From: Geobacter sp. DSM 9736
GTDB lineage: Bacteria > Desulfobacterota > Desulfuromonadia > Geobacterales > Geobacteraceae
Assembly: GCF_900187405.1 (NCBI RefSeq)
Contig: NZ_LT896716.1
Location: 496,001 to 560,000 of the forward strand
Length of the DNA: 64,000 nucleotides
Reading direction: 5' to 3'
Position 1 is the first letter of the stretch. Each line of letters begins with the position of its first letter. Positions 44,481 to 63,045 of this stretch are shown here, piece after piece. Made by a program: the position numbers and the translations under genes. The notes beneath the pieces were generated by a model that ran no database searches, had not been told where the DNA came from, and saw only the letters and a program-made list of their open reading frames with translations.

Positions 44481-44513
44481 TAGGCAATGCGGTTAAATAG
44501 AAAGGAGAGCATC

Positions 44514-45696: not shown

Positions 45697-46947
45697 ATGT
45701 CGCAACAACATAATCTTCGGATCGAAACACTTCTCATCCATGGCGGCACAGAGCCGGGGCCGGCCGGAGCAACCAATGTGCCCATCGTCCAGGCGTCGGC
45801 ATTCGCATACGAGGCCGCAGAGGATCTTGAAGACGTCTTTCGCGGCCGGAGAGCAGGTCAGATCTATACGAGGCTGAACAATCCGACGACCGAAAGCCTG
45901 GAGCGGCGTCTTGCCCTTCTGGAAGGGGGGATTGCCGCCGTTGCCACCGCTTCGGGGATGGCCGCCATCAGCACTGCCGTTCTTACCATCCTTCGCGCCG
46001 GAGACGAGCTCCTCTCCTCCTCATCCCTCTTCGGCGGGACCTATTCACTCTTCCGCGATACACTCAGCAATTACGGAATCGTCACCAAATTCATCGATCC
46101 GACCGATACCGCGCTCCTGGAGCAGGCGGTCTCGGAACGAACCAGGCTCATCTTCATCGAAACCATCGGAAATCCGAAGATGGACGTGCCCGACATTTCG
46201 GCCATCGCCACGATCGCCCGGGAGGCCGGCGTTCCCCTCATGGTTGATGCCACAGTCACTTCTCCTTACCTTGCCAGGGGGCGCGACCTCGGGGCCGACA
46301 TCGTCATTCATTCAACGAGCAAGTTCATCAATGGAACCGGGAGCGTCATCGGTGGCGCCATCGTCGATGCCGGCACCTTCGACTGGAATAGTCCGAAGTT
46401 CCCCCACTTCGAGCAGTTCGTGAAGAAGTACCGGCAGTTCGCGTTCTCCGCGCGGCTCCGAAAGCTGATGCACAAGGACCTGGGCGCTTGCCCGGCTCCC
46501 ATGAACTCGTTCCTCCTCACTGAAGGGATAGAGACCCTCGCACTCAGGATGGACCGGCACTGCGAAAACGCCCTCAAGCTCGCTACCTTCCTGAACTCCC
46601 ATCCGAAAGTGAAATGGGTCAACTATCCCGGGCTCGCTGATTCCCCGTTCCACGACGTTGCAACACGTCAGTACGGCGGCAAATACGGCGGTCTTCTCAC
46701 TTTCGGTCTTCCCGGAAAGGAAGAAGCATTCCGGCTCATCAACGGCCTGCGCATTGCGAAAAACCTTGCCAACATAGGGGATGCGAAGACCCTCGTCATC
46801 CACCCCGCGAGCACCATCTGCTGCGACTACTCGGCAGACCAGCAGAGGCTCCTCGGCGTCTCCGACGAACTTGTCCGGGTTTCCGTCGGGCTCGAACACA
46901 GCGACGATATCATCGGCGACTTCGCTGATGCTCTCAACTCTCTCTGA
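45697..46947 (+). CDS. metY: O-acetylhomoserine sulfhydrylase (Cys/Met metabolism PLP enzyme)
   Basis: 416 residues. GQIYTRLNNPTTESLERRLALLEGG and the PLP lysine motif IVIHSTSKFINGTGSVIGG mark the Cys/Met metabolism family, closest in layout to MetY. It replaces the acetyl group of O-acetylhomoserine by sulfide or a sulfur donor to give homocysteine. The next three genes encode a sulfur carrier, its activating enzyme and a JAMM protease, the gene set described for thiocarboxylate-dependent methionine synthesis in Wolinella, so the carrier may be the sulfur donor. GGAG upstream of ATG. Confidence 0.9.
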   Translation: MSQQHNLRIETLLIHGGTEPGPAGATNVPIVQASAFAYEAAEDLEDVFRGRRAGQIYTRLNNPTTESLERRLALLEGGIAAVATASGMAAISTAVLTILRAGDELLSSSSLFGGTYSLFRDTLSNYGIVTKFIDPTDTALLEQAVSERTRLIFIETIGNPKMDVPDISAIATIAREAGVPLMVDATVTSPYLARGRDLGADIVIHSTSKFINGTGSVIGGAIVDAGTFDWNSPKFPHFEQFVKKYRQFAFSARLRKLMHKDLGACPAPMNSFLLTEGIETLALRMDRHCENALKLATFLNSHPKVKWVNYPGLADSPFHDVATRQYGGKYGGLLTFGLPGKEEAFRLINGLRIAKNLANIGDAKTLVIHPASTICCDYSADQQRLLGVSDELVRVSVGLEHSDDIIGDFADALNSL

Positions 46948-47256: not shown

Positions 47257-48066
47257 ATGCTTACAGAAGACCAGATCCAGCGTTATTCCCGCCACATCAT
47301 CCTCAAGGAGGTCGGTGGTAAGGGTCAGATGAAGCTCCTCAACGGAAAGGTGCTCATCATCGGGGCCGGCGGTCTCGGGGCTCCCATCGCCCTCTATCTG
47401 GCCGCGGCCGGGGTCGGCACCATCGGGATCGCCGATGCCGACACCGTCGACGTGACCAACCTCCAGCGCCAGGTGATCCATTTCACAGACGACGTGGGGA
47501 AGCCGAAGGTACAATCGGCTGCTGAGAAGATGCGGGCGATTAACCCCGACGTGAACGTGCGGACCTACGAGGAGTGGATATCCGCCGCCAACATCGCGCA
47601 GATCATCGCCGACTACGACTTCGTCATCGACGGCACCGACAACTTCGCCGCGAAATTTCTCATCAACGACGCGTGCATCCTCGGGAACAAGCCGTATTCC
47701 CATGGCGGGATCCTCCAGTTCGACGGCCAGACCATCACCATCGTGCCGGGTGAGTCGGCGTGCTACCGCTGCATCTTCCCGACCCCGCCTCCGAAGGACG
47801 CGATCCCCACATGTTCCCAGGCCGGGGTTATCGGGGTTCTTCCGGCGGTGATCGGCTCGATCCAGGCCACCGAGGCGGTGAAGTATCTCCTCGGCAAAGG
47901 CGAGCTCCTCACGGGGCGGCTCCTCACCTACAACGCCCTCAAGATGAAGTTCCGCGACGTCACCATCCGCCGAAGCACCCGCTGCCCGGTCTGCGGGGAG
48001 AACCCCACCGTCACCGAGCTGAAGGATGAGCTCGATGCGATGAACGTCTGCGATCTGGAGAAATAG
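47257..48066 (+). CDS. ThiF/MoeB-like sulfur carrier adenylyltransferase
   Basis: 269 residues. E1-like nucleotide-binding GAGGLGAPIALYLAAAGVGTIGIADAD, the N/R-rich NLQRQVIHF, the acidic DGTDNFAAKFLIND, zinc ligands CYRC and CPVC, and a cysteine in TCSQAGVIG. It would adenylate the carrier's terminal glycine. ATG 47257 has AGAAAGG upstream; the frame extends to 47212 through the repeat but that extension is unlikely. Two bases from the JAMM protease gene. Confidence 0.92.
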   Translation: MLTEDQIQRYSRHIILKEVGGKGQMKLLNGKVLIIGAGGLGAPIALYLAAAGVGTIGIADADTVDVTNLQRQVIHFTDDVGKPKVQSAAEKMRAINPDVNVRTYEEWISAANIAQIIADYDFVIDGTDNFAAKFLINDACILGNKPYSHGGILQFDGQTITIVPGESACYRCIFPTPPPKDAIPTCSQAGVIGVLPAVIGSIQATEAVKYLLGKGELLTGRLLTYNALKMKFRDVTIRRSTRCPVCGENPTVTELKDELDAMNVCDLEK

Positions 48067-48067
48067 C

Positions 48068-48463
48068 ATGCTCACCATCCCGAAGATGATCTATGATGCC
48101 CTCGTCGAGCACGCGCGCAGAGACTTCCCGCTGGAAGCCTGCGGCATCCTCGGGGGGAGTGACGGTGTCGTCACCGAACACTACGCGATGACCAACACCG
48201 ACAAGAGCAACGAGCACTTCATGATGGACCCGAAGGAGCAGTTCGCGGTGGTGAAGGACCTGAGGGGGAAGGGGAAGGGCATGGTGGCGATCTACCACTC
48301 CCACCCGGAGACCCCGGCGCGCCCCTCCGAAGAGGACATCCGGCTCGCGCTTACCCCGGATGTCTCTTACGTGATCGTTTCGCTGGCGGGCCCGGAGCCT
48401 GTTGTGAGGTCGTTCAAGATCACCGAGGGGATCAGTACCGAAGAGGAAGTTTTAATTCAGTAA
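48068..48463 (+). CDS. JAMM/M67 family metallopeptidase (Mec/HcyD-like)
   Basis: 131 residues with the zinc JAMM motif IYHSHPETPARPSEEDI (HxHx7Sx2D) and the upstream Glu in LEACGILGGSDG. Prokaryotic members such as Mec trim residues from the end of sulfur carriers or release the cysteine adduct. Together with the carrier ending in GGGRG, the probable job is to expose the Gly-Gly end. Confidence 0.92.
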   Translation: MLTIPKMIYDALVEHARRDFPLEACGILGGSDGVVTEHYAMTNTDKSNEHFMMDPKEQFAVVKDLRGKGKGMVAIYHSHPETPARPSEEDIRLALTPDVSYVIVSLAGPEPVVRSFKITEGISTEEEVLIQ

Positions 48464-48478
48464 AGACTTGCCACGGAG

Positions 48479-48542
48479 CCACAGAGATACGGAGGGACTT
48501 GGCACTAAAGAGATTGTTCTCTGAGCCTCTGTGTCTCTGTGG
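48479..48542. repeat. Inverted repeat with CCACAGAGA-type arms
   Basis: Arms CCACAGAGATACGGAGG (48479-48495) and CCTCTGTGTCTCTGTGG (48526-48542), 15 of 17 positions complementary, with a 30-base spacer. It lies between the JAMM protease and the sulfite reductase genes and can form a long hairpin, possibly a transcript end or mobile palindrome; no T tract follows. Confidence 0.8.
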
Positions 48543-48574
48543 CGGATTTCAAGGAAGATAGAAAGGATCAAGCA

Positions 48575-49522
48575 ATGTCCCAGCAGCCCACCAAAATCGA
48601 TCTCGGCAACCTCAAGGCCGGCGGCTTCATCAAGGAGCGCGGAAAGGACCTCTTTACCGTGCGGCTCCGCATTCCCGGGGGGCGGCTCCCTATCGACCGC
48701 CTCAAGAAGATCGCCGAAGTGGCTGAGAAGTTCGGTGGCGAGTTCGTCCACCTGTCGGTTCGCCAGTCCATCGAGCTCATCAACGTCAACTTCAAGGACT
48801 TCGATGCGGTGGTTGCGGAGCTCGGGGAGGCGGATCAGAAGGTCGCATCCTGCGGCGCACGCGTCCGCGTCCCGACTGCCTGCGGCGGATGCGAATACAA
48901 CCCGAACGGGCTCGTCGACACCCAGAAGTCGGCCCTCGAGGTGAACGAGAAGCTCTTTGGGATTCCCACCGCCCACCACAAGTTCAAGGTCGGCTTCGCC
49001 GGCTGCCCCTTCGACTGCCCCAAGTCCGCCACCAACGACGTCGGCTTCCAGGGGGCGATCTGGCCTGAGCTCGACCGCGACGGATGCATCAGCTGCGGGA
49101 TATGCGCCAAGTCGTGCACCGACGGGGCTTTGAAAATGGGGGAGGACGGGAAGCCGGTGTTCGATGCCGAGCGCTGCACCTGGTGCGGCGACTGTGTCAA
49201 GGTATGCCCTACCGAGGCCTGGAAGGCCGCGAAATGCGGCTACACGGTGAGGATCGGCGGGAAGTGGGGGAGAAACCCCCTCATCGGGACCCTCTACGCC
49301 ACGTTCCTTCCCGAGGAGAAGGCCGTCGACTTCATCGCCTCCGTCCTCGCCTGGTACAAGGAGAAGGCGGAAGGGAAGGGGCGGATCCGGATCGGCGACA
49401 TCATCCTGCAGGAGGGGGCGGATTCCCTTCTGGAGCATCTGCGGCGCGAATTCCCCGATTTCGTCGTCGAGAAGACGATCCCGCCGCAGATCGTGGAAAC
49501 CCAGGTAGGAACGAGGAGCTGA
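48575..49522 (+). CDS. Small siroheme sulfite reductase with ferredoxin domain
   Basis: 315 residues. One ferredoxin-like half domain and the siroheme/[4Fe-4S] motif in the form ACGGCEYN ... GCPFDCPKS (CxxC with CxxxC) are followed by an inserted two-cluster ferredoxin (CISCGICAKSC, CTWCGDCVKVCP). This is the compact assimilatory, AsrC-like layout rather than the long CysI type. It would reduce sulfite to sulfide for CysK and MetY. ATG 48575 has AAAGGA upstream. Could also act on nitrite, but the neighbours favour sulfite. Confidence 0.88.
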   Translation: MSQQPTKIDLGNLKAGGFIKERGKDLFTVRLRIPGGRLPIDRLKKIAEVAEKFGGEFVHLSVRQSIELINVNFKDFDAVVAELGEADQKVASCGARVRVPTACGGCEYNPNGLVDTQKSALEVNEKLFGIPTAHHKFKVGFAGCPFDCPKSATNDVGFQGAIWPELDRDGCISCGICAKSCTDGALKMGEDGKPVFDAERCTWCGDCVKVCPTEAWKAAKCGYTVRIGGKWGRNPLIGTLYATFLPEEKAVDFIASVLAWYKEKAEGKGRIRIGDIILQEGADSLLEHLRREFPDFVVEKTIPPQIVETQVGTRS

Positions 49523-49796: not shown

Positions 49797-50603
49797 ATGA
49801 AAATCGACCAGAACAGACTGAACATTCTCACTGCACACCCGACTCAGCTGCCGGCTGCCCATGACCTGCGGCGTGACGGGCGCATATTCTTCGTCGGCGG
49901 CGAGCTGTCGGTGAACGAGACGCTCGAGACGATGTTCGACAGCTTCTGCACCGAGTCCACCGATCTGTTCTACCTCTCCTTCGGCCCGAAGGAGACCTGC
50001 CAGCGCGGGATGGAGATGGCGCGGCAGATCAAGAAGAACTTCAGCGTGAGGCTCATGGGGCGTTTCGACTTCCCTGCCCCGGCGTCGTTCACCGAACATG
50101 CCTACGCTGCGGGGGTGGATATTCTCGACATTCCCCTCTGGGTGTTCGATCCCGCAGTGGCCACCCAAAGGGGCTTCGATACCGCCGCTACCATCGAGTC
50201 CCTTCGGGACGCATGCTCGGTTTTTCCCCGCTGGTCGGTGGCCTCGACACTGCTGTTCGGTCCCGAGCCTGCCGACTCGACTATGAAGGGGATCGATACC
50301 CTGCTCAAAGAGGGGATTGTGCCGCTGCCCGCCATAGCGTGGTCCGAATCGGGTGCCGCATCGGAAGGCATCGAGGCAGCCCTGAAGCACCTCGCTTGCG
50401 GGTGGAAGAGCCATGACGTTACGATAAAGCCGCTCATCCCGCTGATCCGTTACACGACGCCGCTCATCCCGCTGGAGCAGCCCGGTCTGTTCCGTGGGCT
50501 CATCGACAAGTTGCAGGATCGTCGCCATCTTGCGGCATCCGATCTGCGCAGGCACCTCAGGGTGCAAGCCGCGGAGAATTCCCTGGACTCCGCCGGACTC
50601 TGA
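49797..50603 (+). CDS. Conserved-looking protein of unknown function
   Basis: 268 residues, soluble, no signal peptide or membrane segment. The sequence suggests a TIM-barrel-like fold with repeated strand-loop blocks (DLFYLSFGPKETCQRGM, VDILDIPLWVFDP, IVPLPAIAWSE). The second half, with a long alpha/beta pattern and PLPAIAW, recalls radical SAM barrels, but there is no Cx3Cx2C cluster motif. Stop overlaps the SLC13 gene by one base (TGATG), so the two are translated together. I do not recognise the family. Confidence 0.7.
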   Translation: MKIDQNRLNILTAHPTQLPAAHDLRRDGRIFFVGGELSVNETLETMFDSFCTESTDLFYLSFGPKETCQRGMEMARQIKKNFSVRLMGRFDFPAPASFTEHAYAAGVDILDIPLWVFDPAVATQRGFDTAATIESLRDACSVFPRWSVASTLLFGPEPADSTMKGIDTLLKEGIVPLPAIAWSESGAASEGIEAALKHLACGWKSHDVTIKPLIPLIRYTTPLIPLEQPGLFRGLIDKLQDRRHLAASDLRRHLRVQAAENSLDSAGL

Positions 50604-52051
50604 TGGAACAGATTACCTTCGACAAACCGCTCAAGGTGGACCGGCGCCCGATCTGGCTCATCCTGTTCGACCGCACCTTCCACTACCAGATCTTCGGCGG
50701 GCTGATCCTGCTGTGTGCATTCCTGTTCAACCTGACCCCTCCCCAGGGGCTCACGGTCCAGGGGTACCACGCGATGATCCTCTTCGGTGCCACCGTGTTT
50801 CTCTGGGTGTCGGGGCTGCTCCCACTTGCCGTCACCTCGCTCGTGGCAATGGCGATGATTCCGCTCCTGGGGATCATGGAAGCAAAGAAGACCTACGCCA
50901 TGTTCGGCAACGAGGCAGTCTTCTTCATACTCGGAGCCTTCATCCTCGCGGCGGCGATGACCGGGTCCGGCCTTTCCACCCGCCTCGCCCGGGGCATGCT
51001 GGCGACCTTCGGCAAGACTCCCACGAGGCTCGCCCTGACGGTATACCTCCTCTGCGCCTTTCTCTCGTTCTGCATGAGCGAGCATGCCGTGGCTGCGATG
51101 ATGTTTCCCATCGTGGCGGAGATCAGCCAGAGTCTCCGGCTCGACGGCGAGCGGGGGAGCTACGGAAAGCTTCTTTTCATGAGCATAGCCTGGGGATGTG
51201 TCATCGGCGGGATCGCCACCTTCCTCGGCGGCGCGCGGGCGCCGCTGGCGGTCGGGATGCTTCGGGAGACCACCGGGCTCGACTTCTCCTTTTTCGAATG
51301 GACGATGGCGGCGATCATGATCGTGATCCCGCTTCTCGCAATCGGGTTCATGCTGCTGCTCAAGCTCTTTCCACAGGATATAGCCAGCGTCGACGAGGGG
51401 CTCAGGTTTCTTAACCGAAAGAGGCTCGAAGCGGGACGGATGAGCTATGACGAGATGATCGTGGCGGTGGTGATGGTCGCAACCATCCTTGCCTGGATCT
51501 TTTTCGGCAAAGCACTCGGGCTTGCCGCAATAGCCACACTGGCTGTTGCAGTCCTCTTCACCTGCCGGGTCGTCTCGTGGCAGGCGATCGAGGAGTACGT
51601 GAACTGGGGCGTCATCCTCATGTACGGTGGCGCGATAGCCATCGCCTCGGCCCTCGAGAAGACAGGTGCGGCGCAGTGGCTGGCCGGGAAGGGGTTGGCG
51701 GGTCTGGGCCACTCCCCGTTCATGGTGATCACTATCATCTCGCTCATTTCCCTGCTTCTGACCGAATGCATCAGCAACGCCGCCGTGATCGCGATCCTCC
51801 TCCCCATCGGGATCAGCCTTGCGAAGAGCATGGGAATGGACCCGCGGGTGATGACCCTGGCGGTGACACTCCCCGCGGGGCTTGCCTACTGTCTCCCGAT
51901 GGGGACGCCTGCCAACGCAATCGTGTATTCATCGGGATTCCTGAAAGGACGGGAGATGATCGTCTCGGGTCTCGTGATCATGACGATCTCGTGGCTGCTC
52001 TTTCTCGCGTCGGCCCGGTTCGTCTGGCCGCTTCTTGGATTCAAGATCTGA
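50603..52051 (+). CDS. SLC13/DASS family anion permease
   Basis: 482 residues with about 12 hydrophobic segments, the SLC13 hallmarks NAVVIAILLP-like segment (ISNAAVIAILLPIGISLAKSMG) and the C-terminal LPAGLAYCLPMGTPANAIVYSSG. Family members move sulfate or dicarboxylates, often with sodium. Its position between sulfite reductase and cysH genes favours sulfate. A second, ABC-type sulfate importer is encoded downstream. Confidence 0.88.
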   Translation: MEQITFDKPLKVDRRPIWLILFDRTFHYQIFGGLILLCAFLFNLTPPQGLTVQGYHAMILFGATVFLWVSGLLPLAVTSLVAMAMIPLLGIMEAKKTYAMFGNEAVFFILGAFILAAAMTGSGLSTRLARGMLATFGKTPTRLALTVYLLCAFLSFCMSEHAVAAMMFPIVAEISQSLRLDGERGSYGKLLFMSIAWGCVIGGIATFLGGARAPLAVGMLRETTGLDFSFFEWTMAAIMIVIPLLAIGFMLLLKLFPQDIASVDEGLRFLNRKRLEAGRMSYDEMIVAVVMVATILAWIFFGKALGLAAIATLAVAVLFTCRVVSWQAIEEYVNWGVILMYGGAIAIASALEKTGAAQWLAGKGLAGLGHSPFMVITIISLISLLLTECISNAAVIAILLPIGISLAKSMGMDPRVMTLAVTLPAGLAYCLPMGTPANAIVYSSGFLKGREMIVSGLVIMTISWLLFLASARFVWPLLGFKI

Positions 52052-52078: not shown

Positions 52079-52768
52079 ATGAATGTAACTGTTGTGCCGG
52101 AAGATGTTACTCCCGCCGATATACTCCGCGCGGGGATCGAAGCCGCAAAAGGCCCGGTGTCCCTTGCCTGCTCATTCTCCCTCGAGGACGTGGCGATCAT
52201 CGACATCGCCCACGAGGCGGGGCTGAAACTCGGCGTCTTCGCCATCGACACCGGCCGCCTCAACGAGGAGACCTACGAAGTGTCGGAGGCGCTCGTCGAG
52301 CGGTACCGCCTGAAGATCGACTGGTACTTCCCACGCCACGAGGATGTGGAGCGGCTCGAGCGGGAGAAGGGGCTTTTCTCCTTCCGCGAGTCGCTGGAAA
52401 ACCGCCACGAGTGCTGCCACATCCGGAAGGTGGAACCGCTGTCCCGGGCGCTGTCGGGGCTGGCCGGATGGGTTACCGGGATGCGCAAAGGGCAGGGGGT
52501 AACACGGGGGGGGCTCGCGCCCATCGAGCTAGACGAGCTCAACGGCGGCATCCTCAAGATAAACCCGTTCCTCGCCTGGAACCACGAAGAGGTACTCGCA
52601 TATACAAAGGAGCGGAACCTGCCGGTGAACCGGCTCCTTACACAGGGTTACTGCTCCATCGGCTGCGCCCCCTGCACCCGCGCCATCAAGCCCGGGGAGG
52701 ACTGCAGGGCGGGGAGGTGGTGGTGGGAGGATCCAGAAAACAAGGAATGCGGCCTTCACCGCAGGTGA
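52079..52768 (+). CDS. cysH: Assimilatory APS reductase (CysH family)
   Basis: 229 residues. PAPS/APS reductase fold with SLACSFSLEDV near the start; the paired cysteines ECCHIRK and GCAPC plus the final ECGLH motif. The CC...CxxC set binds a [4Fe-4S] cluster and marks enzymes that reduce APS directly. That agrees with the absence of an APS kinase (cysC) gene here. Product is sulfite, used by the sulfite reductase. Confidence 0.94.
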   Translation: MNVTVVPEDVTPADILRAGIEAAKGPVSLACSFSLEDVAIIDIAHEAGLKLGVFAIDTGRLNEETYEVSEALVERYRLKIDWYFPRHEDVERLEREKGLFSFRESLENRHECCHIRKVEPLSRALSGLAGWVTGMRKGQGVTRGGLAPIELDELNGGILKINPFLAWNHEEVLAYTKERNLPVNRLLTQGYCSIGCAPCTRAIKPGEDCRAGRWWWEDPENKECGLHRR

Positions 52769-53034: not shown

Positions 53035-53940
53035 ATGAGTAACAACCTGACCCACCTGCAGCAGCTCGAAGCCGAGTCGATCCACATCATCCGTGAGGTC
53101 GTTGCCGAGTTCTCGAATCCGGTGATGCTCTACTCCATCGGGAAGGACTCGGCGGTGATGCTGCATCTGGCGCGCAAGGCCTTTTACCCGGCGCCGCCTC
53201 CGTTTCCGCTGCTCCACGTGGACACCACCTGGAAGTTCCGCGACATGATTACCTTCCGCGATCGGATGGTCGCGGAATGCGGCCTCGAGCTCCTCGTGTA
53301 TACCAACCAGGACGGGGTCAACCGGGGGGTCACCCCTTTTACACACGGCTCAGCCCTCTATACCGACATCATGAAGACGGAGGGGCTCAAGCAGGCGCTC
53401 GACAAGTACAAGTTCGATGCGGCTTTTGGCGGGGCGCGCAGGGACGAGGAGAAATCACGTGCGAAGGAGCGTATCTTCTCCTTCCGCAGCGCGAACCACC
53501 GCTGGGACCCGAAGAACCAGCGCCCCGAGCTCTGGAGCCTCTACAACACCCGGGTGAAGCCCGGCGAGAGCATCAGGGTGTTCCCCCTCTCCAACTGGAC
53601 GGAGCTCGACGTCTGGCAGTACATTCACCTGGAAAACATCCCCATCGTTCCCCTCTACTACGCGGCGGTCAGGCCGGTGGTCGAGCGGGACGGGATGCTC
53701 ATCATGGTGGACGACGAGCGTCTCGAGCTGAAGCCGGGTGAGACGGTGCAGTACAAGTCGGTCCGGTTCCGGACGCTGGGTTGCTATCCGCTCACCGGCG
53801 CTGTCGAGTCTGAGGCCGACACGCTGCCGCAGATCATCCAGGAGATGCTCCTCACCCGCACATCGGAGCGGCAGGGGCGCCTCATCGATCATGATCAGGC
53901 GGGAAGCATGGAGAAGAAGAAGCAAGAGGGTTATTTTTAA
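53035..53940 (+). CDS. cysD: Sulfate adenylyltransferase small subunit
   Basis: 301 residues: [17 protein letters not shown] (PP-loop), [34 protein letters not shown] and [18 protein letters not shown]. Forms ATP sulfurylase with CysN. ATG 53035 has TGGAGAA upstream; the in-frame ATG at 53023 is less likely. A palindromic repeat separates it from cysN. Confidence 0.97.
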
Positions 53941-53992: not shown

Positions 53993-55663
53993 ATGGCACA
54001 CCAATCCGAACTGATCGAAAAGGACATCCTGGCGTTTCTAAAGAGCCAGGAGGAGAAGTCGCTCCTGCGCTTCATCACCTGCGGCAGCGTCGACGACGGG
54101 AAGAGTACCCTCATCGGGCGTCTTCTCTGGGATTCGAAGATGGTCTTTGAGGACCAGCTGGCGGCGCTCGAGGCCGACAGCAAGAAGGTCGGAACGCAAG
54201 GGGGCGCTATCGACTACGCCCTTCTTCTCGATGGCCTGCAGGCCGAGCGGGAGCAGGGGATAACCATCGATGTCGCCTACCGCTTCTTCTCCACCGATCT
54301 TCGCAAGTTCATCGTCGCCGACACACCGGGCCACGAGCAATACACCCGCAACATGGTCACCGGCGCTTCCACCGCGAAGGTGGCTGTGATCCTCGTCGAT
54401 GCCCGCAAGGGACTCCTCACCCAGACCTGCCGCCACAGCTATCTCGTCTCCCTCGTCGGAATCCGCCACGTGCTTCTCGCGGTGAACAAGATGGACCTGA
54501 TCGGCTTCGATAGGGAAAAGTTCGAGAAGATCGTCGCCGACTACCGCACGTTTGCCGAGCCGCTGGGGTTCACGTCGATCACGGCGATTCCCATCTCGGC
54601 GTTGAACGGCGACAACATCATCGAGTCGAGCGACAACACTCCGTGGTACGAGGGTTCGACCCTGATGAAGTACCTCGAGACGGTCCAGGTGGAGGGTGAC
54701 AACCGCCACCAGCCGTTCCGGCTCCCGGTCCAGTGGGTCAACCGCCCCCACCTCGATTTCCGCGGGTTCTGCGGCACCATCGCCGCCGGAACGATCAGGC
54801 CCGGCGACGAAGTTCGGGTCGCTTCCTCGGGACGTACGAGCCGTGTCGCCCGTATCGTCACGATGGGGGGTGATCTGGCGGAGGGGGTTGCAGGACAGGC
54901 GGTGACGGTCACCCTCAGCGATGAGATCGACATCAGCCGGGGCGACATGCTTACCCCGACCGATGCGCCCCCCCTCCATACCCGTCATCCGGAGGCACAC
55001 CTGGTCTGGCTTCACGACGAACCGCTCCAGCCTGGGCAGCTCTACCTTGTGAAGACTGCCTCGGCGGTGACTCCCGGGAGGGTGACGGCTGTCCACTACG
55101 GGGTCGACGTGAATACCCTCGAGCAGAAGCAGGTGACGACCCTAGGGCTGAACGGCATCGGCGTCGTCCGGCTGGAGCTCGACCGCCCCGTGTCGTTCGA
55201 CCCGTATCGGCAGAACCGCGAGACCGGAAGCTTCATTCTCATCGACCGCTACACCAACGCCACGGTTGCAGCCGGGATGGTCATCTCCGCGCCCGTCGAT
55301 CCTGACGCGGTGGAGGTTACCCGGTTCGTGCCGGAGAAGGTGCACTGCGAGGAAACCGCACCCACCCGTTTCAGCCTCAGTGAGGCCTCGATCAGCGCAG
55401 GGGGGGGCGTCGACCTCACCGCCGAGGGGTGTGCCATCGAGTTCGAGATCTCCCCGGGCTTCATCGATCACCTGGGCAGGGGGAACAGGGTCCTCTTCAG
55501 GCTCAACGAGCTTGCACAGCTCCCCGCAGTAGCGCTCCTTGCATTCGAGCACCGTCTCTCGTTCGAATTCGACCGCACCCCCGACGGTCTCAGCATCCTT
55601 TTATACAGGCGGGGGATCAAACCTTCGGGCACCCTTTACGCAGATGACGGCACCGGGATCTGA
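53993..55663 (+). CDS. cysN: Sulfate adenylyltransferase large subunit (GTPase)
   Basis: 556 residues. GTPase motifs GSVDDGKSTLIGRL, DTPGHEQYTRNMVTGAS and NKMD, followed by the EF-Tu-like beta barrels. No fused CysC kinase domain, consistent with an APS-reducing pathway. The frame is open back into cysD, but ATG 53993 with GAGG five bases upstream is the start. With CysD it activates sulfate to APS. Confidence 0.97.
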   Translation: MAHQSELIEKDILAFLKSQEEKSLLRFITCGSVDDGKSTLIGRLLWDSKMVFEDQLAALEADSKKVGTQGGAIDYALLLDGLQAEREQGITIDVAYRFFSTDLRKFIVADTPGHEQYTRNMVTGASTAKVAVILVDARKGLLTQTCRHSYLVSLVGIRHVLLAVNKMDLIGFDREKFEKIVADYRTFAEPLGFTSITAIPISALNGDNIIESSDNTPWYEGSTLMKYLETVQVEGDNRHQPFRLPVQWVNRPHLDFRGFCGTIAAGTIRPGDEVRVASSGRTSRVARIVTMGGDLAEGVAGQAVTVTLSDEIDISRGDMLTPTDAPPLHTRHPEAHLVWLHDEPLQPGQLYLVKTASAVTPGRVTAVHYGVDVNTLEQKQVTTLGLNGIGVVRLELDRPVSFDPYRQNRETGSFILIDRYTNATVAAGMVISAPVDPDAVEVTRFVPEKVHCEETAPTRFSLSEASISAGGGVDLTAEGCAIEFEISPGFIDHLGRGNRVLFRLNELAQLPAVALLAFEHRLSFEFDRTPDGLSILLYRRGIKPSGTLYADDGTGI

Positions 55664-55697
55664 CGCTTCAGAAAAACTCGGAACCCGTGTTCTGGTG

Positions 55698-55771
55698 CTG
55701 GGCAGGTGGAGCCCTGGCGGTGAACCCGCGAAGTAGGCTGTATGCCGGCGCGGAAACCGCTCCACCGACCC
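55698..55771 (+). ncRNA. Candidate structured RNA element downstream of cysN
   Basis: GGGCAGGTGGA (55700-55710) can pair with TCCACCGACCC (55761-55771) with one internal loop, enclosing three small hairpins: GCGG-TGAAC-CCGC, GGC-TGTAT-GCC and GCGG-AAA-CCGC. A multibranched fold followed by a terminator resembles a small RNA or riboswitch-like leader, but I do not recognise a known class. Low confidence. Confidence 0.3.
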
Positions 55772-55803
55772 CATGGTCCACAATCTTGAGCGTTCAACCT
55801 GAC

Positions 55804-55964: not shown

Positions 55965-55981
55965 AAAGCAAGGAGGGTATG

Positions 55982-56980
55982 ATGAAAAGGATCGCCAATG
56001 TCATTCTGGCAGCAGCTGTAGCTCTCGGTGTATCTCTCCCCGCGGCAGCCTCTGCGGACACCACGCTTCTCAACGTTTCATACGATCCGACCCGCGAACT
56101 GTATACCGACATCAACAAGGCGTTTGCCCAGCAGTGGCAGAAAAAGACAGGGCAAAAGCTCACCGTCAAGCAGTCCCACGGCGGCTCCGGGAAGCAGGCC
56201 CGGGCCGTCATCGACGGTCTCGAAGCCGATGTGGTGACGCTGGCACTCGCGTACGACATTGATGCCATCGCCCAGAAGGGGCTGATCAAGCAGGGCTGGC
56301 AGAAGGAGTTGCCTCACAACAGCTCTCCGTACACATCTACAATCGTCTTCCTCGTGCGGAAGGGAAATCCCAAGAAGATCAAGAACTGGAACGACCTGGT
56401 AAAACCGGGTGTATCCGTTATCACTCCCAACCCCAAGACATCCGGCGGGGCCCGCTGGAACTACCTTGCCGCCTGGGCCTTCGCGCTTCACGAAAAGGGT
56501 GGTACCGAGGCCAAAGCCAGGGAGTTCGTGACGAAGCTCTTCAGGAATGTGCCGGTCCTCGATTCCGGCGCTCGCGGCTCCACCAACACCTTCGTCCAGC
56601 GCGGCCTTGGAGATGTCCTCCTTGCATGGGAGAACGAAGCGTTCCTTGCCATCAACGAACTGGGCCCGGACAAGTTCGAGGTGGTTACCCCCTCTGAAAG
56701 CATTCTCGCCGAGCCTCCCGTTACCGTCATCGACAAGGTCGTTGACAAGCGAGGCACCCGGAAGGTTGCCGAAGAGTACCTGAAGTTCCTTTACACCGAC
56801 GAGGGGCAGAGGATTGCAGCCAAGCACTACTATCGTCCTATCAACAGCAAGATTCCCACGAAGCTGGCAAAAGTGAAGCTCTATACCATAGATCAGGCGT
56901 TCGGCGGCTGGCAGAAAGCCCAGAAGACGCACTTCGCCGACGGGGGCGTGTTTGACAAGATCTACAGCGCCGGGAAATGA
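55982..56980 (+). CDS. sbp: Sulfate ABC transporter substrate-binding protein
   Basis: 332 residues with signal peptide ([25 protein letters not shown]) and the sulfate/thiosulfate-binding family sequence: [71 protein letters not shown]. Periplasmic capture of sulfate. Two adjacent ATG codons (55979, 55982); the second has better spacing from AAGGAGGG. The matching permease genes come only after a five-gene insertion. Confidence 0.95.
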
Positions 56981-57056: not shown

Positions 57057-59075
57057 ATGGCGATGAAACCTAAATTCCCGACGAAAGCTGATGTCATAGC
57101 CCGCACCCCCGATCCGGCTGTCCGCGAGATGCTGAAGCACATGGAGCAGGCGGGGATCGAGACGGCTTTCGACCGTTTCGATGCGCAGAAACCCCACTGC
57201 GGGTTCGGCCTCGCCGGGACGTGCTGCAAGAACTGCCACATGGGACCGTGCCGAATCACGCCCAAGAGCCCGCGAGGCGTCTGCGGCGCCGATGCCCACC
57301 TCATCGCCGCCCGGAACATCCTTCGCTGGACCGCCGCCGGGGCTGCCGCCCACGGCGCACGGGGGCGCGAGGTTATGCTTGCCCTCAAGGGGGCGGCGGA
57401 AGGAACCCTCGACCTCCCGATCCTCGGCCCGGAGAAGGTCGTCGCTACTGCCAAGTCATTCGGCATTTACGACGAGAAGAAATCGGTCCAGGAACTGTCA
57501 GGAGAGATATCCCTGATACTTCTCGAAGACCTCTGCCGCACGATCCCCGGACCGTACCGCACCCTGGAGGCACTGGCGCCACCCGAACGGCTTCAGGTCT
57601 GGAAGGAGCTTGACATCCTGCCGGTAGGCGCCTATCACGAAATATTCGAGGCGCTCCATCGCACCACCACCGGCACCGACGGCGATTGGGAGAACACCGC
57701 GCGGCAGGTCCTGCGCTGCGGTCTGGCCTTCGCCTGGAGCAGCGTCGTGGGGTCATCCATCGCCATGGACTGCCTGTACGGGCTTCCCAAGCGGAGCCGC
57801 GTTACCACCAACCTCGGCGCGATCACGGAAGGTTCGGTCAATATCGCGGTGCATGGCCACTCTCCCGTGCTTGTCGCCGCCATCGTGAAGGCAGCCCGGC
57901 GCTCGGACCTACTCGATGCCGCGACCGATGCAGGCGCTTCGGGAATCCGGCTCTACGGGATCTGCTGCTCCGGTCATTCGGCCCTCGCCAAGTTCGGGGA
58001 TATCACCCCGCTTACCAATGCCGTCGGGGCTGAACTGGCCCTTGCCACCGGCGCCGTCGATCTGTGGGTGGCCGACGTCCAGGACGTCTTCCCCGGCATC
58101 ATGGACGTGGCGGCATGCTTCCATACCCGCGTCGTCACCACGAGCGATTCCGCGAGGCTTCCCGGCGCCGAGCACATCGCCTTCGATCATCACCATTCCA
58201 ATCTCGACCAGGCGGACGACCTGGCGGAACGGATCGTCCGGCGCGGAATCGGGGCGTTCGGCCTCCGGCAGCAGGGGAAGGTCTTCATTCCGAAAGCCCG
58301 GATGGACGCGGAGGTTGGTTTTTCCGTCGAAAAAATCCTTGCCACGTTCGGCAGTGGCGAGGTGCTGGTAGAGCACCTTAAGAGCGGCCGCATCCGCGGT
58401 GTTGTCAACCTGGTCGGGTGCAACAACCCCAAGGTCCTCTACGAGGAGACCATCGTGAAGGTGGCGGACGAACTGATCGCCCACGACGTGCTCCCCCTCA
58501 CCAACGGCTGTGCCGCCTACGCGCTCCTCAAACTCGGCTTCTGCCTTCCCGAAGGTCTCGAAGGGGCAGGGGAGGGGCTCAACGCCGCGCTGGGCGAGCA
58601 TGGTCTTCCTCCCGTCTGGCACATGGGTGAATGCCTCGACAACGCCCGGGCTTCAGCTTTCTTCCGCACCATTGCCGCAGCCACGGGGGAGCCGCTGAAA
58701 AAGCTGCCCTTGGCGTTTTCAAGTCCCGAGTGGTCCAACGAGAAGGGTATCGGGGCGGCCATGGGGTTTCGCCTGCTGGGGCTCAATTCGTACCACTGCG
58801 TCGCCCCGCCGATCTCCGGATCCGACAAGCTCTCACGGTTTTTTTACGAGGACACCCGGGAGTTGCTCGGAGCGGTGATGGTCGTTGACCCCGACCCTGT
58901 CGCGCTTGCCCGTCAAATTGTCGCCGATTTCGATGCACGCCGCGCCGGTCTCGGCTGGAAAGTTCCAGTCCCGCCGTCAGAGAAACGGCTGTCGGTGCTG
59001 CAGCACGAAAAACAACACGCTCACGCCCACCTTCACGGGCACAGCCATACCCACGAGGAGGATCATCATGATTAA
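57057..59075 (+). CDS. CooS-type carbon monoxide dehydrogenase-like protein with altered C-cluster ligand
   Basis: 672 residues. D- and B-cluster cysteines are intact (C48, C56, C57, C60, C65, C76 in CGFGLAGTCCKNCHMGPC). Of the C-cluster set, H266, C303/C304 (GICCSG), C455 (VGCNN), C485 (TNGC), C526 (GEC) and the catalytic K563 are present, but the cysteine expected in the VQC motif is Asp343 (VADVQD). H99 is kept. The C-terminus is histidine-rich (HAHAHLHGHSHTHEEDHHD), suggesting metal binding. It may have non-canonical cluster chemistry. No CooF, CooC or ACS gene is adjacent; an ABC transporter follows. Confidence 0.88.
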   Translation: MAMKPKFPTKADVIARTPDPAVREMLKHMEQAGIETAFDRFDAQKPHCGFGLAGTCCKNCHMGPCRITPKSPRGVCGADAHLIAARNILRWTAAGAAAHGARGREVMLALKGAAEGTLDLPILGPEKVVATAKSFGIYDEKKSVQELSGEISLILLEDLCRTIPGPYRTLEALAPPERLQVWKELDILPVGAYHEIFEALHRTTTGTDGDWENTARQVLRCGLAFAWSSVVGSSIAMDCLYGLPKRSRVTTNLGAITEGSVNIAVHGHSPVLVAAIVKAARRSDLLDAATDAGASGIRLYGICCSGHSALAKFGDITPLTNAVGAELALATGAVDLWVADVQDVFPGIMDVAACFHTRVVTTSDSARLPGAEHIAFDHHHSNLDQADDLAERIVRRGIGAFGLRQQGKVFIPKARMDAEVGFSVEKILATFGSGEVLVEHLKSGRIRGVVNLVGCNNPKVLYEETIVKVADELIAHDVLPLTNGCAAYALLKLGFCLPEGLEGAGEGLNAALGEHGLPPVWHMGECLDNARASAFFRTIAAATGEPLKKLPLAFSSPEWSNEKGIGAAMGFRLLGLNSYHCVAPPISGSDKLSRFFYEDTRELLGAVMVVDPDPVALARQIVADFDARRAGLGWKVPVPPSEKRLSVLQHEKQHAHAHLHGHSHTHEEDHHD

Positions 59076-60048
59076 GGCACTGCTTCACGGATCGAAGGCT
59101 GCGGTTGCTTCGGCAGCACTACTCGCTGCATTGCAAGTTTTCGGAGGGGTTGCCCGGGCAGCCGATATCCCTACGCTGAAGATCGGCTACCTTCCCCTTA
59201 CCCATTCGATGGCCGTAGTGGTTGCTGACAAACTGAATACAGGGAAATACCGCAACGTGAAGCCTGAACTGGTGAAGTTCAGTTCATGGCCGGAACTTCT
59301 CGATGCGTTTAACTCGGGCAAAATCCAGGCTGCCTCCGAGCTGATGGCCCTCGCCCTCGCCGGAGCGGAGCGGGGCGTTCCCGGCTCGGTTGTGGCATTG
59401 AGTCACCGTCATGGCGACATCCTTACCGTGGCGAAGGACGTCAAGTCGGTCCGTGAGCTGAAGGGAAAGCGGGTGGCGATCCCCCACCGGATGTCCGTCC
59501 ACAACATCCTCCTTTCCCAGGCCCTGAAAAAGGAAGGGCTTACCTTGAAGGACGTTCAGTGGATCGAGATGCCGCCTCCCGACATGCCTGCCGCCCTTGC
59601 ACGGGGTGACATCAAGGGATTCATCGTTGCGGAGCCGTTCGGTACGAAGGCGATACAGGCAGGGTTCGGGAAGAAACTCCTCAATGCCAAAGATATCTGG
59701 CCCGACTACATCTGCTGCGCGCTCGTGCTCAACCCGTCGTTCAAGAAGAAATACCCGGCGGCTGCCAAGGAGTACATCGACAGCTTCACCGCCGCCGGCA
59801 GGTTCATCGACGCCAACCGCGGGGAAGCCATCAGGATCGCCCGGCAGTACATGAACATCGACGAGAAGGTTTTCGTTCAGTCCCTTACCCATGACGTGAC
59901 CTACTCGGACCTTCGCCTCAAGCGCGGAGAGGTGGAGCAGCTGCAGAAATACGCCCTCGAGCTGAACCTGCTGAAAAAGCCGGTGAACCTCGACAGCCTC
60001 CTCGATACCACGTTCGTGGCTGCGCCTGCGAAGAAAGGCAAAAAGTGA
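59068..60048 (+). CDS. NitT/TauT-type ABC transporter substrate-binding protein
   Basis: 326 residues with signal peptide (hydrophobic run ASAALLAALQVFGG, cleavage near ARA-AD). KIGYLPLTHSMAVVVADKL, AFNSGKIQAASELMALALAGA and GKRVAIPHRMSVHNILL fit the nitrate/taurine/sulfonate-type family. ATG 59068 overlaps the cooS stop and has GAGGAGG upstream. Substrate unknown; cysteine pair ICCAL in the C-terminal half. Confidence 0.9.
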   Translation: MIKALLHGSKAAVASAALLAALQVFGGVARAADIPTLKIGYLPLTHSMAVVVADKLNTGKYRNVKPELVKFSSWPELLDAFNSGKIQAASELMALALAGAERGVPGSVVALSHRHGDILTVAKDVKSVRELKGKRVAIPHRMSVHNILLSQALKKEGLTLKDVQWIEMPPPDMPAALARGDIKGFIVAEPFGTKAIQAGFGKKLLNAKDIWPDYICCALVLNPSFKKKYPAAAKEYIDSFTAAGRFIDANRGEAIRIARQYMNIDEKVFVQSLTHDVTYSDLRLKRGEVEQLQKYALELNLLKKPVNLDSLLDTTFVAAPAKKGKK

Positions 60049-60806
60049 AAACCGCTATCCGCACCATACTCCTGCCCGCCGTCACGTTCCTGGTCGTGCT
60101 GGCGGCGTGGCACGGAGCCTCCATCCTACAGCTCTACCCGGAGCACCTTTTCCCGTCACCGCTCACGGTAGCAAAGGGTGCGGAGGAAATTTTCAAGACC
60201 GGGGAACTGTGGCAGAACGTCTGGGTAAGCCTTCTGCGGTTCGCCGCGGGCTACGGGGCCGCCGCCTTCCTCGCGCTGCCGCTGGGGCTTCTCTTCGGCA
60301 GGTGCCTTCTGCTCTGGAGTGCCGTCGACCCGCTGATCCAGGTTCTGAGGCCCGTTTCCCCCATCGCCTGGTTCCCGCTCATAAGCCTCTGGTTCGGGAT
60401 CGGGAACCTGCCTGCGGTGGTCATCATTTTCCTTGCTGCGTTTTACCCGATTCTCCTGACTACCGTAGCGGCGGTTAAGAACGTACCCCCGGTGTACCTC
60501 AAGGTGGCGAAGAACCTGGGGGCGTCGCGGCGGAAGGTGCTGTGGGATGTGATAGTCCCGGCCGCCTTCCCCCAAATCACCGTGGGGTTGCATATCGCCA
60601 TCGGCGCGGCCTGGGTGTTTCTCGTGGCGGGCGAGATGCTGGGTGTCCGCTCGGGACTCGGCTACCTCATCATCGACAGCCGGAACAACCTTCGCACCGA
60701 TCTCGTCATCGTCGGCATCATCTTCATCGGGGTATCCGGCCTCGTCATCGACCGGCTCATGGGACTTGCGGAGCGGTGGGTGAAACGGCAGTGGGGTGCG
60801 GCATGA
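60045..60806 (+). CDS. ABC transporter permease (NitT/TauT type)
   Basis: 253 residues, about six membrane segments and the EAA-type loop KNLGASRRKVLWDVIVPAAFPQI. GTG start overlapping the binding-protein stop by four bases, and its own stop overlaps the ATPase start. Moves the unknown substrate across the inner membrane together with the next gene. Confidence 0.92.
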   Translation: MKTAIRTILLPAVTFLVVLAAWHGASILQLYPEHLFPSPLTVAKGAEEIFKTGELWQNVWVSLLRFAAGYGAAAFLALPLGLLFGRCLLLWSAVDPLIQVLRPVSPIAWFPLISLWFGIGNLPAVVIIFLAAFYPILLTTVAAVKNVPPVYLKVAKNLGASRRKVLWDVIVPAAFPQITVGLHIAIGAAWVFLVAGEMLGVRSGLGYLIIDSRNNLRTDLVIVGIIFIGVSGLVIDRLMGLAERWVKRQWGAA

Positions 60807-61600
60807 CGGCGAATCCATTGGTGAAGATACGTCTGGAAGGGGTAGAGAAGCGGTTTACCTCCGCCGGCGGAAGCGAGCAGACGGCGCTTTCCCGACTGGA
60901 CCTGGAAATCCGCTCCGGGGAGTTCGTCTGCCTCGTCGGGCCCAGCGGCTGCGGGAAGACGACGCTCATCAACCTGCTTGCCGGATTCGAAAAGCCCTCC
61001 GAGGGGAGCGTTACCATCGACGGGCGGCCGGTTGCGGGTCCCGATCCGGACCACATCATGATCTTCCAGGATTACGGGCTCTATCCCTGGAAGACGGTAC
61101 TCGGCAATGTCCTCTTCGGGCTGCAGTCCCGCAGGGTTCCGGTGGCCGAGGCACGGGAGCGGGCACTGGCCGCCCTGGATCTCGTCGGTTTGCGGCAGTC
61201 GGCGGAGAAGCACCCTCATGAGCTCTCGGGGGGGATGAAGCAACGCGTTGCCATTGCCCGTGCACTGGCCGTGGAGCCGAGCGTCCTTTTCATGGATGAG
61301 CCCTTCGCGGCACTCGACGCGTTCACGAGGCTGCACCTGCAGGACGAGCTGCTCCGGATATGGCAGGAGAAGCGCCCCACCGTTGTCTTCGTCACCCATG
61401 ATCTCGACGAAGCCATTGCCCTCGGGCAACGGGTAGTGCTCATGGCGCCGTTTCCCGGAAGAATACAGCGTGTCCTCGACGTGAGCCTGCCGTATCCTCG
61501 GGAGCGCACCCGGGAAGACTTCGCGGTTGTGCGCCGGGAACTGTTCAACGAGTTCCATCTCGTGCACCAGCAGGCGTCAAGCAGCGATTACGCAATTTGA
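60803..61600 (+). CDS. ABC transporter ATP-binding protein (NitT/TauT type)
   Basis: 265 residues. Walker A GPSGCGKTTLI, Q-loop FQDYGLYPW, signature LSGGMKQRVAIARAL, Walker B SVLFMDEPFAALD and H-loop FVTHDLDEA. Energises the permease encoded upstream. ATG 60803 overlaps the permease stop; the open frame further upstream is a shadow. Confidence 0.95.
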   Translation: MTANPLVKIRLEGVEKRFTSAGGSEQTALSRLDLEIRSGEFVCLVGPSGCGKTTLINLLAGFEKPSEGSVTIDGRPVAGPDPDHIMIFQDYGLYPWKTVLGNVLFGLQSRRVPVAEARERALAALDLVGLRQSAEKHPHELSGGMKQRVAIARALAVEPSVLFMDEPFAALDAFTRLHLQDELLRIWQEKRPTVVFVTHDLDEAIALGQRVVLMAPFPGRIQRVLDVSLPYPRERTREDFAVVRRELFNEFHLVHQQASSSDYAI

Positions 61601-61629
61601 AACAGCTAGCAAGGCAGGAGAGGATAACC

Positions 61630-62208
61630 GTGAAAGTACGTGACAGCGGCATGCCCGAAGAGGAAATGTGGTCGACCTTTTTCGATCCCTCCTCCATTTT
61701 GAGCACGTTGGGGTTTTCAGCCGATACAGGCGATATAGTGGAATTCGGGTGCGGCTATGGGACCTTCACGCTTCCGGCGGCAGCTCTTGTTTCGGGAACG
61801 GTCAGTGCCTTCGACATCGAGCCTGAGATGGTTGCAACAGTACGTAAAAAGTGCCGCGCGCAGGGTATCCGCAACGTAGCTGCCGAAGTCCGGGATTTCG
61901 TTGCCGATGGGACGGGGCGCGATGACGATTCACAGGACGGAGTGCTCCTTTTCAATATCCTTCACCACGAGGAGCCGGTTCAGCTCATGCGGGAAGCCTG
62001 TCGGATCGTCCGCCCGGGTGGCGTGGTTGCCGTGATTCACTGGAATTACGACCCTTCCACGCCGCGGGGGCCGGCAATGGAGATACGGCCGAAGCCGGAA
62101 CAATGCATTTCGTGGGGAGTGGCTGTGGGGTTCGACCGTGAAAACATCATCTCTTTCCATCTCCCGCCGTATCATTACGGCCTGCTTTTCAGAAAAAGCA
62201 GTCGCTGA
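61630..62208 (+). CDS. SAM-dependent methyltransferase
   Basis: 192 residues, class I fold: GDIVEFGCGYGTFTLPAAAL (motif I), SAFDIEPEMV (motif II), DGVLLFNILHHEEPVQLMREACRIVRPGGVVAVIHW. I choose the GTG at 61630 because GGAGAGGA lies just upstream; TTG 61597 overlapping the ATPase gene is the alternative. It closes the CODH-ABC module. Substrate unknown; no nearby gene indicates one. Confidence 0.85.
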   Translation: MKVRDSGMPEEEMWSTFFDPSSILSTLGFSADTGDIVEFGCGYGTFTLPAAALVSGTVSAFDIEPEMVATVRKKCRAQGIRNVAAEVRDFVADGTGRDDDSQDGVLLFNILHHEEPVQLMREACRIVRPGGVVAVIHWNYDPSTPRGPAMEIRPKPEQCISWGVAVGFDRENIISFHLPPYHYGLLFRKSSR

Positions 62209-62217
62209 GGTCTCGAC

Positions 62218-63045
62218 ATGGCGAAAAAATCACCGTCTTCCGTTCTTCCGGGTTTCGGCCCGACAATGGGGTACACGATATTCTATCTCAGCATCATCGT
62301 GCTCATACCTCTTTCCGCCCTCGTTATCAAGAGCGCCGGACTCTCCTGGAGTGACTTTGTCGAAGCTGTCGCCTCACCCCGCGTTATCGCATCCTACAGG
62401 GTGACGTTCGGGGCCGCACTCCTGGCTGCCCTCGTCAATGCCGTTTTCGGCGTTCTCGTGGCGTGGGTGTTGGCCCGGTACCACTTTCCGGGGAAGCGGC
62501 TCGTCGATGCGCTCGTCGATCTTCCTTTCGCACTCCCCACCGCCGTTGCCGGGATAACGCTTGCGACCGTATATTCACCCAACGGCTGGATCGGGCGCTA
62601 CCTCGACCCCCTCGGAATCAAGGTTGCGTTCACGCCCCTTGGCATTCTCGTTGCCATGACGTTCATAGGGCTTCCTTTCGTGGTGCGGACCGTACAGCCG
62701 GTGATCGAGGAAATGGAGAGCGAGATCGAGGAGGCTTCCGCCTGCCTCGGGGCGAGCCGCTGGCAGACCTTCAGCCGCGTGTTGTTCCCGCTTCTGCTCC
62801 CATCGATCCTGACCGGATTCGCTCTCGCATTCGCGCGCGCGGTGGGGGAGTATGGGTCGATCATCTTCATTGCCGGCAACATGCCGATGGTTTCGGAGAT
62901 AACGCCTCTCATCATAATCACCAAGCTGGAGCAGTACGACTATCAAGGGGCGACGGCGGTGGCGTCGGTGATGCTGGGGGCGTCGTTTCTGTTGCTGCTC
63001 GTCATCAACCTGCTGCAACGGTGGAGTCGCAGGTTTGCGGAGTAG
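62218..63045 (+). CDS. cysT: Sulfate ABC transporter permease CysT
   Basis: 275 residues, six membrane segments, and the sulfate-permease EAA loop EEASACLGASRWQTFSRVLFPLLLPSILTGF. YGSIIFIAGNMPMVSEITPLII is typical of CysT/CysU. It partners with Sbp (55.98 kb) and CysW, but is separated from sbp by the CODH module. Confidence 0.95.
   Translation: MAKKSPSSVLPGFGPTMGYTIFYLSIIVLIPLSALVIKSAGLSWSDFVEAVASPRVIASYRVTFGAALLAALVNAVFGVLVAWVLARYHFPGKRLVDALVDLPFALPTAVAGITLATVYSPNGWIGRYLDPLGIKVAFTPLGILVAMTFIGLPFVVRTVQPVIEEMESEIEEASACLGASRWQTFSRVLFPLLLPSILTGFALAFARAVGEYGSIIFIAGNMPMVSEITPLIIITKLEQYDYQGATAVASVMLGASFLLLLVINLLQRWSRRFAE

Follow-up and report, generated by a model that had tools for sequence, protein, structure and literature searches.

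Clade B of the CODHs probably serves sulfur acquisition and not CO metabolism, as judged from the genes that surround its members and from the changes in their sequences. The window analysed here, a stretch of 64,000 nucleotides from Geobacter sp. DSM 9736, carries one such gene, cooS, at positions 57057–59075 of the + strand. Its product has an aspartate, Asp343, where CODH-II has the C-cluster cysteine Cys333. With somewhat less confidence, we favour the reading that a clade-B CooS would free sulfur from an imported compound without oxygen, as a nickel enzyme replacing an O2-dependent flavoenzyme. The Asp variant itself is not new and has been catalogued since 2019. What is new here is the pairing of Asp/Glu343 with Glu525, the sulfur-gene context together with the link between group B-4 and the cysteine synthase CysK, and the flavoprotein counterpart of CooS.

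The open reading frame at 57057–59075 encodes a full-length CooS-type protein of 672 residues, which scores 508.4 bits with the NCBIfam model TIGR01702 (CO_DH_cata; cut-off 478). An earlier note on this DNA had placed Asp343 at the Cys333 position of CODH-II. Phmmer comparison with solved CODHs, to which the protein is highly similar, bore this out, VADVQD aligning over VVDVQC of 6elq, as did an alignment of 102 rows made up of 101 clade-B Asp/Glu proteins and the second CODH of this genome. Of these rows, 99 have Asp at residue 343 and 2 have Glu, while Cys occurs solely in the second CODH. The D- and B-cluster cysteines, His266, C455, C485, C526 and Lys563, which the note had listed as retained, are indeed kept: H266, C303/C304, C354, C455, C485, C526, K563 and H99 are invariant in 102/102 rows, and the D/B-cluster cysteines are present in 101/102, the remaining row having a gap. 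In the window CooS the equivalents of Cys295, Cys446 and Cys476 of CODH-II are conserved, so that the C-cluster set of one His and five Cys departs from the complete form at the second Cys, which is Asp343. Cys354 was considered as a stand-in for Cys333 and ruled out: the canonical CODHs 6elq, 6t7j and the genome's other CooS hold both cysteines, and Cys354 therefore does not fill the Cys333 position. The canonical CooS of the same genome lies apart from the clade-B gene (L005 9855–14511; G000, 3.035 Mb), with CooC, CooF-like and pyridine-nucleotide-oxidoreductase-like neighbours, the usual CO-oxidation set. Elsewhere, a Desulfobacterota clade-B cooS (L013; G297 contig 11) carries an in-frame TGA around residue 182, at what seems to be a conserved Trp; this is a nonsense mutation, a sequencing error or a case of recoding.

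The exchange at residue 343 is coupled to a second one. In CODH-II, Cys333 is known to ligate a cubane iron and Cys526 the nickel. Glu525, beside this last cluster cysteine, accompanies Asp/Glu343 in 101/101 proteins; residues 343/525 are Cys/Gly in 12/12 basal clade-B (B-4) proteins and Cys/Ser in 9/9 canonical CODHs. In an unrooted tree computed by a quick method, all Asp/Glu proteins fall on one side of a branch with 100% support, which suggests a joint gain of both carboxylates along a single long branch. Asp/Glu343 is found in Desulfuromonadales, Chlorobi, Chromatiaceae, Firmicutes, Bacteroidota, Fibrobacterota and one Methanosarcina. The single fully supported branch and the retention across these groups indicate that the change is not due to chance. 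The earlier proposal of an altered cluster in place of a dead gene is upheld.

The part of the CODH catalogue of Inoue 2019 that we drew on already describes this variant, placing it in group B-3 of clade B and noting a NitT/TauT transporter (PMC6344411). Clade B is divided there into B-1 (Asp/Glu and an N-terminal His-rich region), B-2 (Asp), B-3 (Asp and a C-terminal His-rich region; representative WP_012645460) and B-4 (Cys retained), and NitT/TauT transporter genes are recorded for all four groups. By its sequence the window protein is group B-3, with which it shares Asp343 at the second C-cluster Cys, the other ligands and the His/Lys being kept, a type II D-cluster (Cys-X7-13-Cys-Cys; here C48-X7-C56-C57), a His-rich C-terminus with ten His within the last ~41 residues, and adjacent NitT/TauT ABC transporter genes (59068–61600). 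Unlike the present work, the same part of the catalogue proposes nickel or another metal ion as the cargo of the transporter, and it does not report the sulfur context, the B-4 CysK link, the paired Glu525 or the flavoprotein counterpart (PMC6344411). According to a 2026 survey in eLife, clade B shares its operons chiefly with ABC transporters; the survey adds that the function of the clade 'could not be deduced' and that biochemical characterisation of any member is still awaited (PMC13056359).

The window cooS sits within a sulfur-assimilation island of ~21 kb on the + strand, in the order regulator-cysK-metY-ThiF/JAMM-sulfite-reductase-family-cysHDN-sbp-cooS-ABC-methyltransferase-cysTWA. 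An Rrf2-family regulator with weak CymR/IscR likeness stands at its head (44020–44445; TIGR00738, 99 bits, cut-off 73; CymR 63.7, below cut-off). It is followed by cysteine synthase CysK (44487–45467; TIGR01139, 461.8 bits, cut-off 350.95) and an O-acetylhomoserine/O-acetylserine sulfhydrylase-like protein of the MetY/CGS family (45697–46947; TIGR01326, 482.5, just below the cut-off of 495). Next come a ThiF/MoeB-type adenylyltransferase (47257–48066; above the PRK05690 subfamily cut-off and below the others), a JAMM-type metalloprotease of the sulfur-carrier processing type (48068–48463; desampylase match below cut-off) and a siroheme sulfite-reductase-family protein (48539–49522; NIR_SIR PF01077, 79 bits, above cut-off; TIGR02912 below). 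The stretch between this gene and cysH (49797–52051) encodes a radical-SAM-variant-like protein, which scores below cut-off, and a DASS-family anion symporter. The assimilation genes proper encode CysH, an APS/PAPS reductase (52079–52768; NF002537, 246.7, cut-off 154), CysD (53038–53940; TIGR02039, 533), CysN (53993–55663; TIGR02034, 647) and the sulfate-binding protein Sbp (55979–56980; TIGR00971, 494), the last three also above their cut-offs.

Downstream, the cooS stop codon is overlapped by the start of a NitT/TauT-type substrate-binding protein (SBP) gene, ATGATTAA, an overlap that suggests translational coupling of the two genes. The SBP (59068–60048) matches PF13379 with 130 bits, above cut-off, and its nearest solved structure is 3UN6 (E 1.7e-41). 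An ABC permease (60045–60806; best models SaoP/TauC/SsuC, all below cut-off) and an ABC ATPase (60803–61600; ntrCD, 253 bits, below cut-off) complete the importer. They are followed by a SAM-dependent methyltransferase (61597–62208; Pfam Methyltransf_25, above cut-off), the sulfate permease CysT (62218–63045; TIGR02139, 431, above cut-off), and CysW, from 63482, and CysA, which run past the window end. A homolog of the methyltransferase occupies the same place, between the ABC genes and cysT, in Geobacter sp. OR-1 (L023). Within the window operon no known riboswitch was detected, either at gathering thresholds or at E<=1. A foldable leader at 55690–55800 was rejected as a control element, being no more stable than shuffled sequences (z -0.34) and having no homolog at other loci.

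The strongest sulfur link of clade B lies in group B-4. CysK was found within 1.5 kb of cooS at 12/12 B-4 loci, compared with 0/8 canonical CODH loci in the same search, and all eight of the B-4 CysK proteins tested score above the CysK cut-off. Eleven B-4 loci were followed over a longer distance, and in all of them cysK adjoins cooS on the same strand. The SBP gene lies on the other side of cooS in ten of them, the eleventh ending at a contig edge, and nine of these ten also have the permease and ATPase. Since the transporter and the sulfur link are common to both halves of clade B, the sulfur link is independent of the Cys-to-Asp change; the order of the two depends on the root of a clade B tree that is unrooted.

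Asp-type loci in other genomes point the same way. We compared 80 named clade-B loci, the window locus excluded, with 40 control windows from the same genomes. An SBP homolog was present in 76/80 loci versus 0/40 controls and a permease in 73/80 versus 1/40, counts that are inflated by close kin, related genomes not being independent. A core sulfur-assimilation gene (CysK, MetY/CGS, CysE, Sbp, CysH, CysD, CysN or SIR, families partly chosen after the loci had been seen) occurred in 16/37 Asp-type loci of at least 18 kb versus 3/40 control windows (Fisher p 0.0003, subject to the same inflation). One Pseudobutyrivibrio run reads MetY-SIR-TusA-thioredoxin-ThiF-JAMM-HemC-CobA-SBP-permease-ATPase-CooS, then MetY and CysK. 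Some clade-B loci are adjoined by a family-2A encapsulin and a cysteine desulfurase, a system tied to sulfur starvation (PMC8049743), and some lie near a nitrogenase-like pair, from the wide class to which isethionate reductase belongs (PMC11423573). At many Firmicutes Asp-type loci (Ruminococcus, several Clostridium) the transporter and cooS stand alone, without a nearby sulfur gene. A SAM riboswitch precedes cooS in Clostridium luticellarii; as a general control it was rejected, being present in one genome only among the Clostridia sampled. No NiCo riboswitch was found among the loci searched. In Ruminococcus, two small predicted membrane proteins (~130 and ~105 residues; clusters c6 and c12) follow cooS, at loci L080, L083, L092, L096, L097 and L161; the one that was checked matches no Pfam family. 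The last of these operons, in R. albus 7, is on plasmid pRUMAL02, which is typed as conjugative. Downstream of the cooS operon of a Prevotellaceae MAG lie genes for an FmdE-family protein and a small membrane protein (L074 5495–6058).

Relatives of the importer outside clade B suggested what CooS may stand in for. The window SBP falls below the SsuA and TauA family cut-offs (SsuA_fam 139.5 against 163.5; TauA 53.5 against 304). Among its nearest CooS-free relatives in a plasmid collection, a flavoprotein of the acyl-CoA-dehydrogenase family is encoded in 11/11 annotated operons, in most cases along with an AhpD-like, OsmC or DUF4242 protein. They come from Synechococcus (pANL), Agrobacterium, Methylocystis, Thermomicrobium, Deinococcus, Bartonella, Acetobacter, Roseomonas, Pseudonocardia, Variovorax and Pseudosulfitobacter; on pANL, cysK lies upstream of the operon on the same strand. 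In Ruminococcus albus, the sole anaerobe among the plasmid relatives, cooS replaces the flavoprotein. Moreover, the SBPs from CooS operons of Rhodocyclus, Thiobaca, Allochromatium and a Desulfovibrio fall into one group with flavoprotein-linked SBPs (100/99 support). Those of Rhodocyclus and Thiobaca are 64–68% identical to the Agrobacterium and Roseomonas SBPs, compared with about 33–34% to the window SBP. Finally, Rhodocyclus tenuis (L050) and an uncultured proteobacterium (L047) carry AhpD-like, ATPase, SBP, permease, flavoprotein, CooC homolog and CooS genes in one operon. The simplest account of these arrangements would be a single importer that works with either of two enzymes, according to whether oxygen is present.

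The flavoprotein scores far below cut-off with the sulfur oxygenase models SfnB (TIGR04022; best 46 bits against 430.9) and DszC, and matches this weak leave its sulfur role presumptive. The Acetobacter ascendens plasmid operon (L167) combines OsmC, flavoprotein, rubredoxin and ABC importer with a cyanase, a single case with a divergent SBP that hints at thiocyanate or cyanate handling by some members. Within the Geobacter group, the window SBP groups with those of L025, L027 and L041 (~76–78% identical) and is ~37% identical to the SBPs of other Geobacter cooS operons (L023, L020), while the CooS proteins are ~82% identical; the binding protein of the importer was thus exchanged within this group.

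Several neighbours bear on the metal of the cluster. CooC homologs, called by similarity to the CooC beside the other CODH of the genome, directly precede cooS in eight Asp-type loci (L046–L050, L069, L214 and L215; E about 1e-22 to 1e-25 for L046–L050 and L069). CbiM-type Co/Ni ECF genes, whose models do not separate cobalt from nickel, adjoin cooS at L058 and L084, and LarB is present at L070. CooC and the Co/Ni-type ECF genes favour a nickel cluster over a nickel-free Fe-S-O cluster, and LarB and the His-rich N- or C-terminal extensions common within the Asp group add to this, so that clade-B CooS is likely to contain nickel.

From the observed sequence changes, operon partners and phylogeny, we infer the nickel content, the substrate, the product and the direction of the chemistry as follows. 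The NitT/TauT-type ABC importer would take up a small, probably sulfur-containing anion. CooS would be a homodimer of the CODH fold whose nickel-iron-sulfur C-cluster has Asp343 in place of one cubane-iron cysteine and a second carboxylate, Glu525, beside the last cluster cysteine, Cys526. That CooS acts on the imported compound itself seems rather more plausible than otherwise; it would cleave the anion, reductively or hydrolytically, and release its sulfur in reduced form, most likely as sulfide, for CysK or MetY to build into cysteine or homocysteine. This importer family would, in aerobes, serve an acyl-CoA-dehydrogenase-fold flavoprotein, presumably O2-using, of which CooS would be the oxygen-free counterpart. 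The NIR_SIR domain is missing from 13/40 clade-B genomes, some of them incomplete but including cultured Ruminococcus, Butyrivibrio and Pelovirga. Sulfite would be of little use there, which weakens it as a universal product. This absence, read with the incompleteness of some genomes in mind, and the constant CysK partner of B-4 favour sulfide over sulfite, a preference that we hold tentatively and at close to even confidence. As to the substrate, a sulfonate is possible but doubtful, and the same holds for a thiocyanate-like or other small sulfur anion.

The nickel-import hypothesis of Inoue 2019 would make CooS an ordinary CODH with an unusual ligand, fed by a NitT/TauT importer of Ni2+ or a nickel complex and with a His-rich tail that stores nickel. 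His-rich extensions are indeed frequent among the Asp-type proteins, some loci have CooC and Co/Ni-type ECF genes as neighbours, and the closest solved SBP, 3UN6, is described as a metal-binding protein in the part of the catalogue considered (PMC6344411). However, the same transporter family accompanies the flavoprotein in all 11 aerobic operons, a pairing that weakens the nickel-feeding role, and a nickel importer would be redundant with the separate CbiM-type ECF transporter in the L058 operon. It would also leave CysK at 12/12 B-4 loci unexplained. The acyl-CoA-dehydrogenase-type fold is not known to require nickel. We therefore regard metal supply as unlikely. Turnover of CO or CO2 might instead have been retained, so that CooS would feed electrons of low potential into assimilatory sulfite reduction or to related reductases of the sulfur operon. 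This would agree with the conservation of all the C-cluster Ni-site residues (H266, C304, C526, K563/H99) and with the sulfite-reductase-family gene near cooS in the window and at several loci. Yet CooF, present beside 7/8 canonical CODH loci, was found beside neither B-4 nor Asp-type cooS at the loci tested for it, the 13/40 genomes lack a sulfite reductase, and the constant transporter would have no explanation. Retained CO turnover is accordingly improbable, and the earlier suggestion that the activity may not be CO oxidation is probably right.

The earlier note had looked to CooS-V of Carboxydothermus (clade D, group D-1). The rival reading along this line is an Fe-S-O hybrid cluster of the CooS-V or HCP kind with a hydroxylamine- or NO-related activity. 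CooS-V is also a CODH scaffold in which one C-cluster Cys has become a carboxylate, and it illustrates that a single exchange can convert the cluster (PMC9311411). Purified CooS-V does not oxidise CO with viologen dyes. The analogy did not hold up, since the ligand exchanged is a different one: Cys295 to Glu in CooS-V (PMC9311411), Cys333 to Asp here, the Cys295 position being Cys in 102/102 rows. The seventh hybrid-cluster ligand of HCP, a Glu at CODH-II position 561 (PMC10502027), is Asn in 101/101 clade-B Asp/Glu proteins, which argues against a cluster of the HCP or CooS-V type. Moreover, CooC is present in a subset of loci, and no recurring nitrogen-oxide genes were noticed in the neighbourhoods; a hybrid cluster is thus very improbable. 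CooS-V also differs in that no transporter context is described for it (PMC9311411). We give still less credence to a degenerate, non-catalytic protein retained as a metal store or sensor. A 'degenerated function' has been raised (PMC13056359), but 101 proteins from several phyla share all the other cluster and acid-base residues without variation, and Asp343 and Glu525 change together.

Clade B is a main CODH clade, found in rumen, gut, phototroph and sediment anaerobes. A search at E<=1e-40 found no other CODH in 33/40 clade-B genomes, an absence that a role in sulfur acquisition, if correct, would explain. It would also mean that the NiFe C-cluster has been put to a second use, in chemistry other than that of CO, and that strict anaerobes possess a counterpart to the oxygen-dependent organosulfur enzymes. 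The sulfur reading turns a vague annotation into specific tests.

SsuABC-SsuD and TauABC-TauD are aerobic sulfonate systems with an O2-dependent enzyme. The clade-B loci resemble them in placing an importer of the NitT/TauT superfamily beside a putative sulfur-releasing enzyme, and differ in the oxygen dependence of SsuD and TauD and in an SBP that, in the window, falls below the SsuA and TauA family cut-offs. Somewhat short of even confidence, we propose that clade-B CooS is a third kind of oxygen-free sulfur-scavenging metalloenzyme beside the nitrogenase-like Isr and Mar. Its NiFe cluster, re-tuned by the paired Asp/Glu, would cleave an imported compound at a carbon-sulfur or similar bond and pass sulfide to cysteine synthase, the enzyme being swapped for an O2-dependent flavoenzyme behind the same importer family. 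The closest parallel is the isethionate reductase system IsrBHDK with SsuCAB of Rhodobacter capsulatus, in which an SsuABC-type importer likewise accompanies an oxygen-free metalloenzyme for sulfur acquisition and sulfate-transport, cysteine desulfurase and serine acetyltransferase genes are co-induced (PMC11423573). The Isr enzyme differs in being nitrogenase-like, with a radical SAM protein, and not a CODH, and its product is sulfite (PMC11423573).
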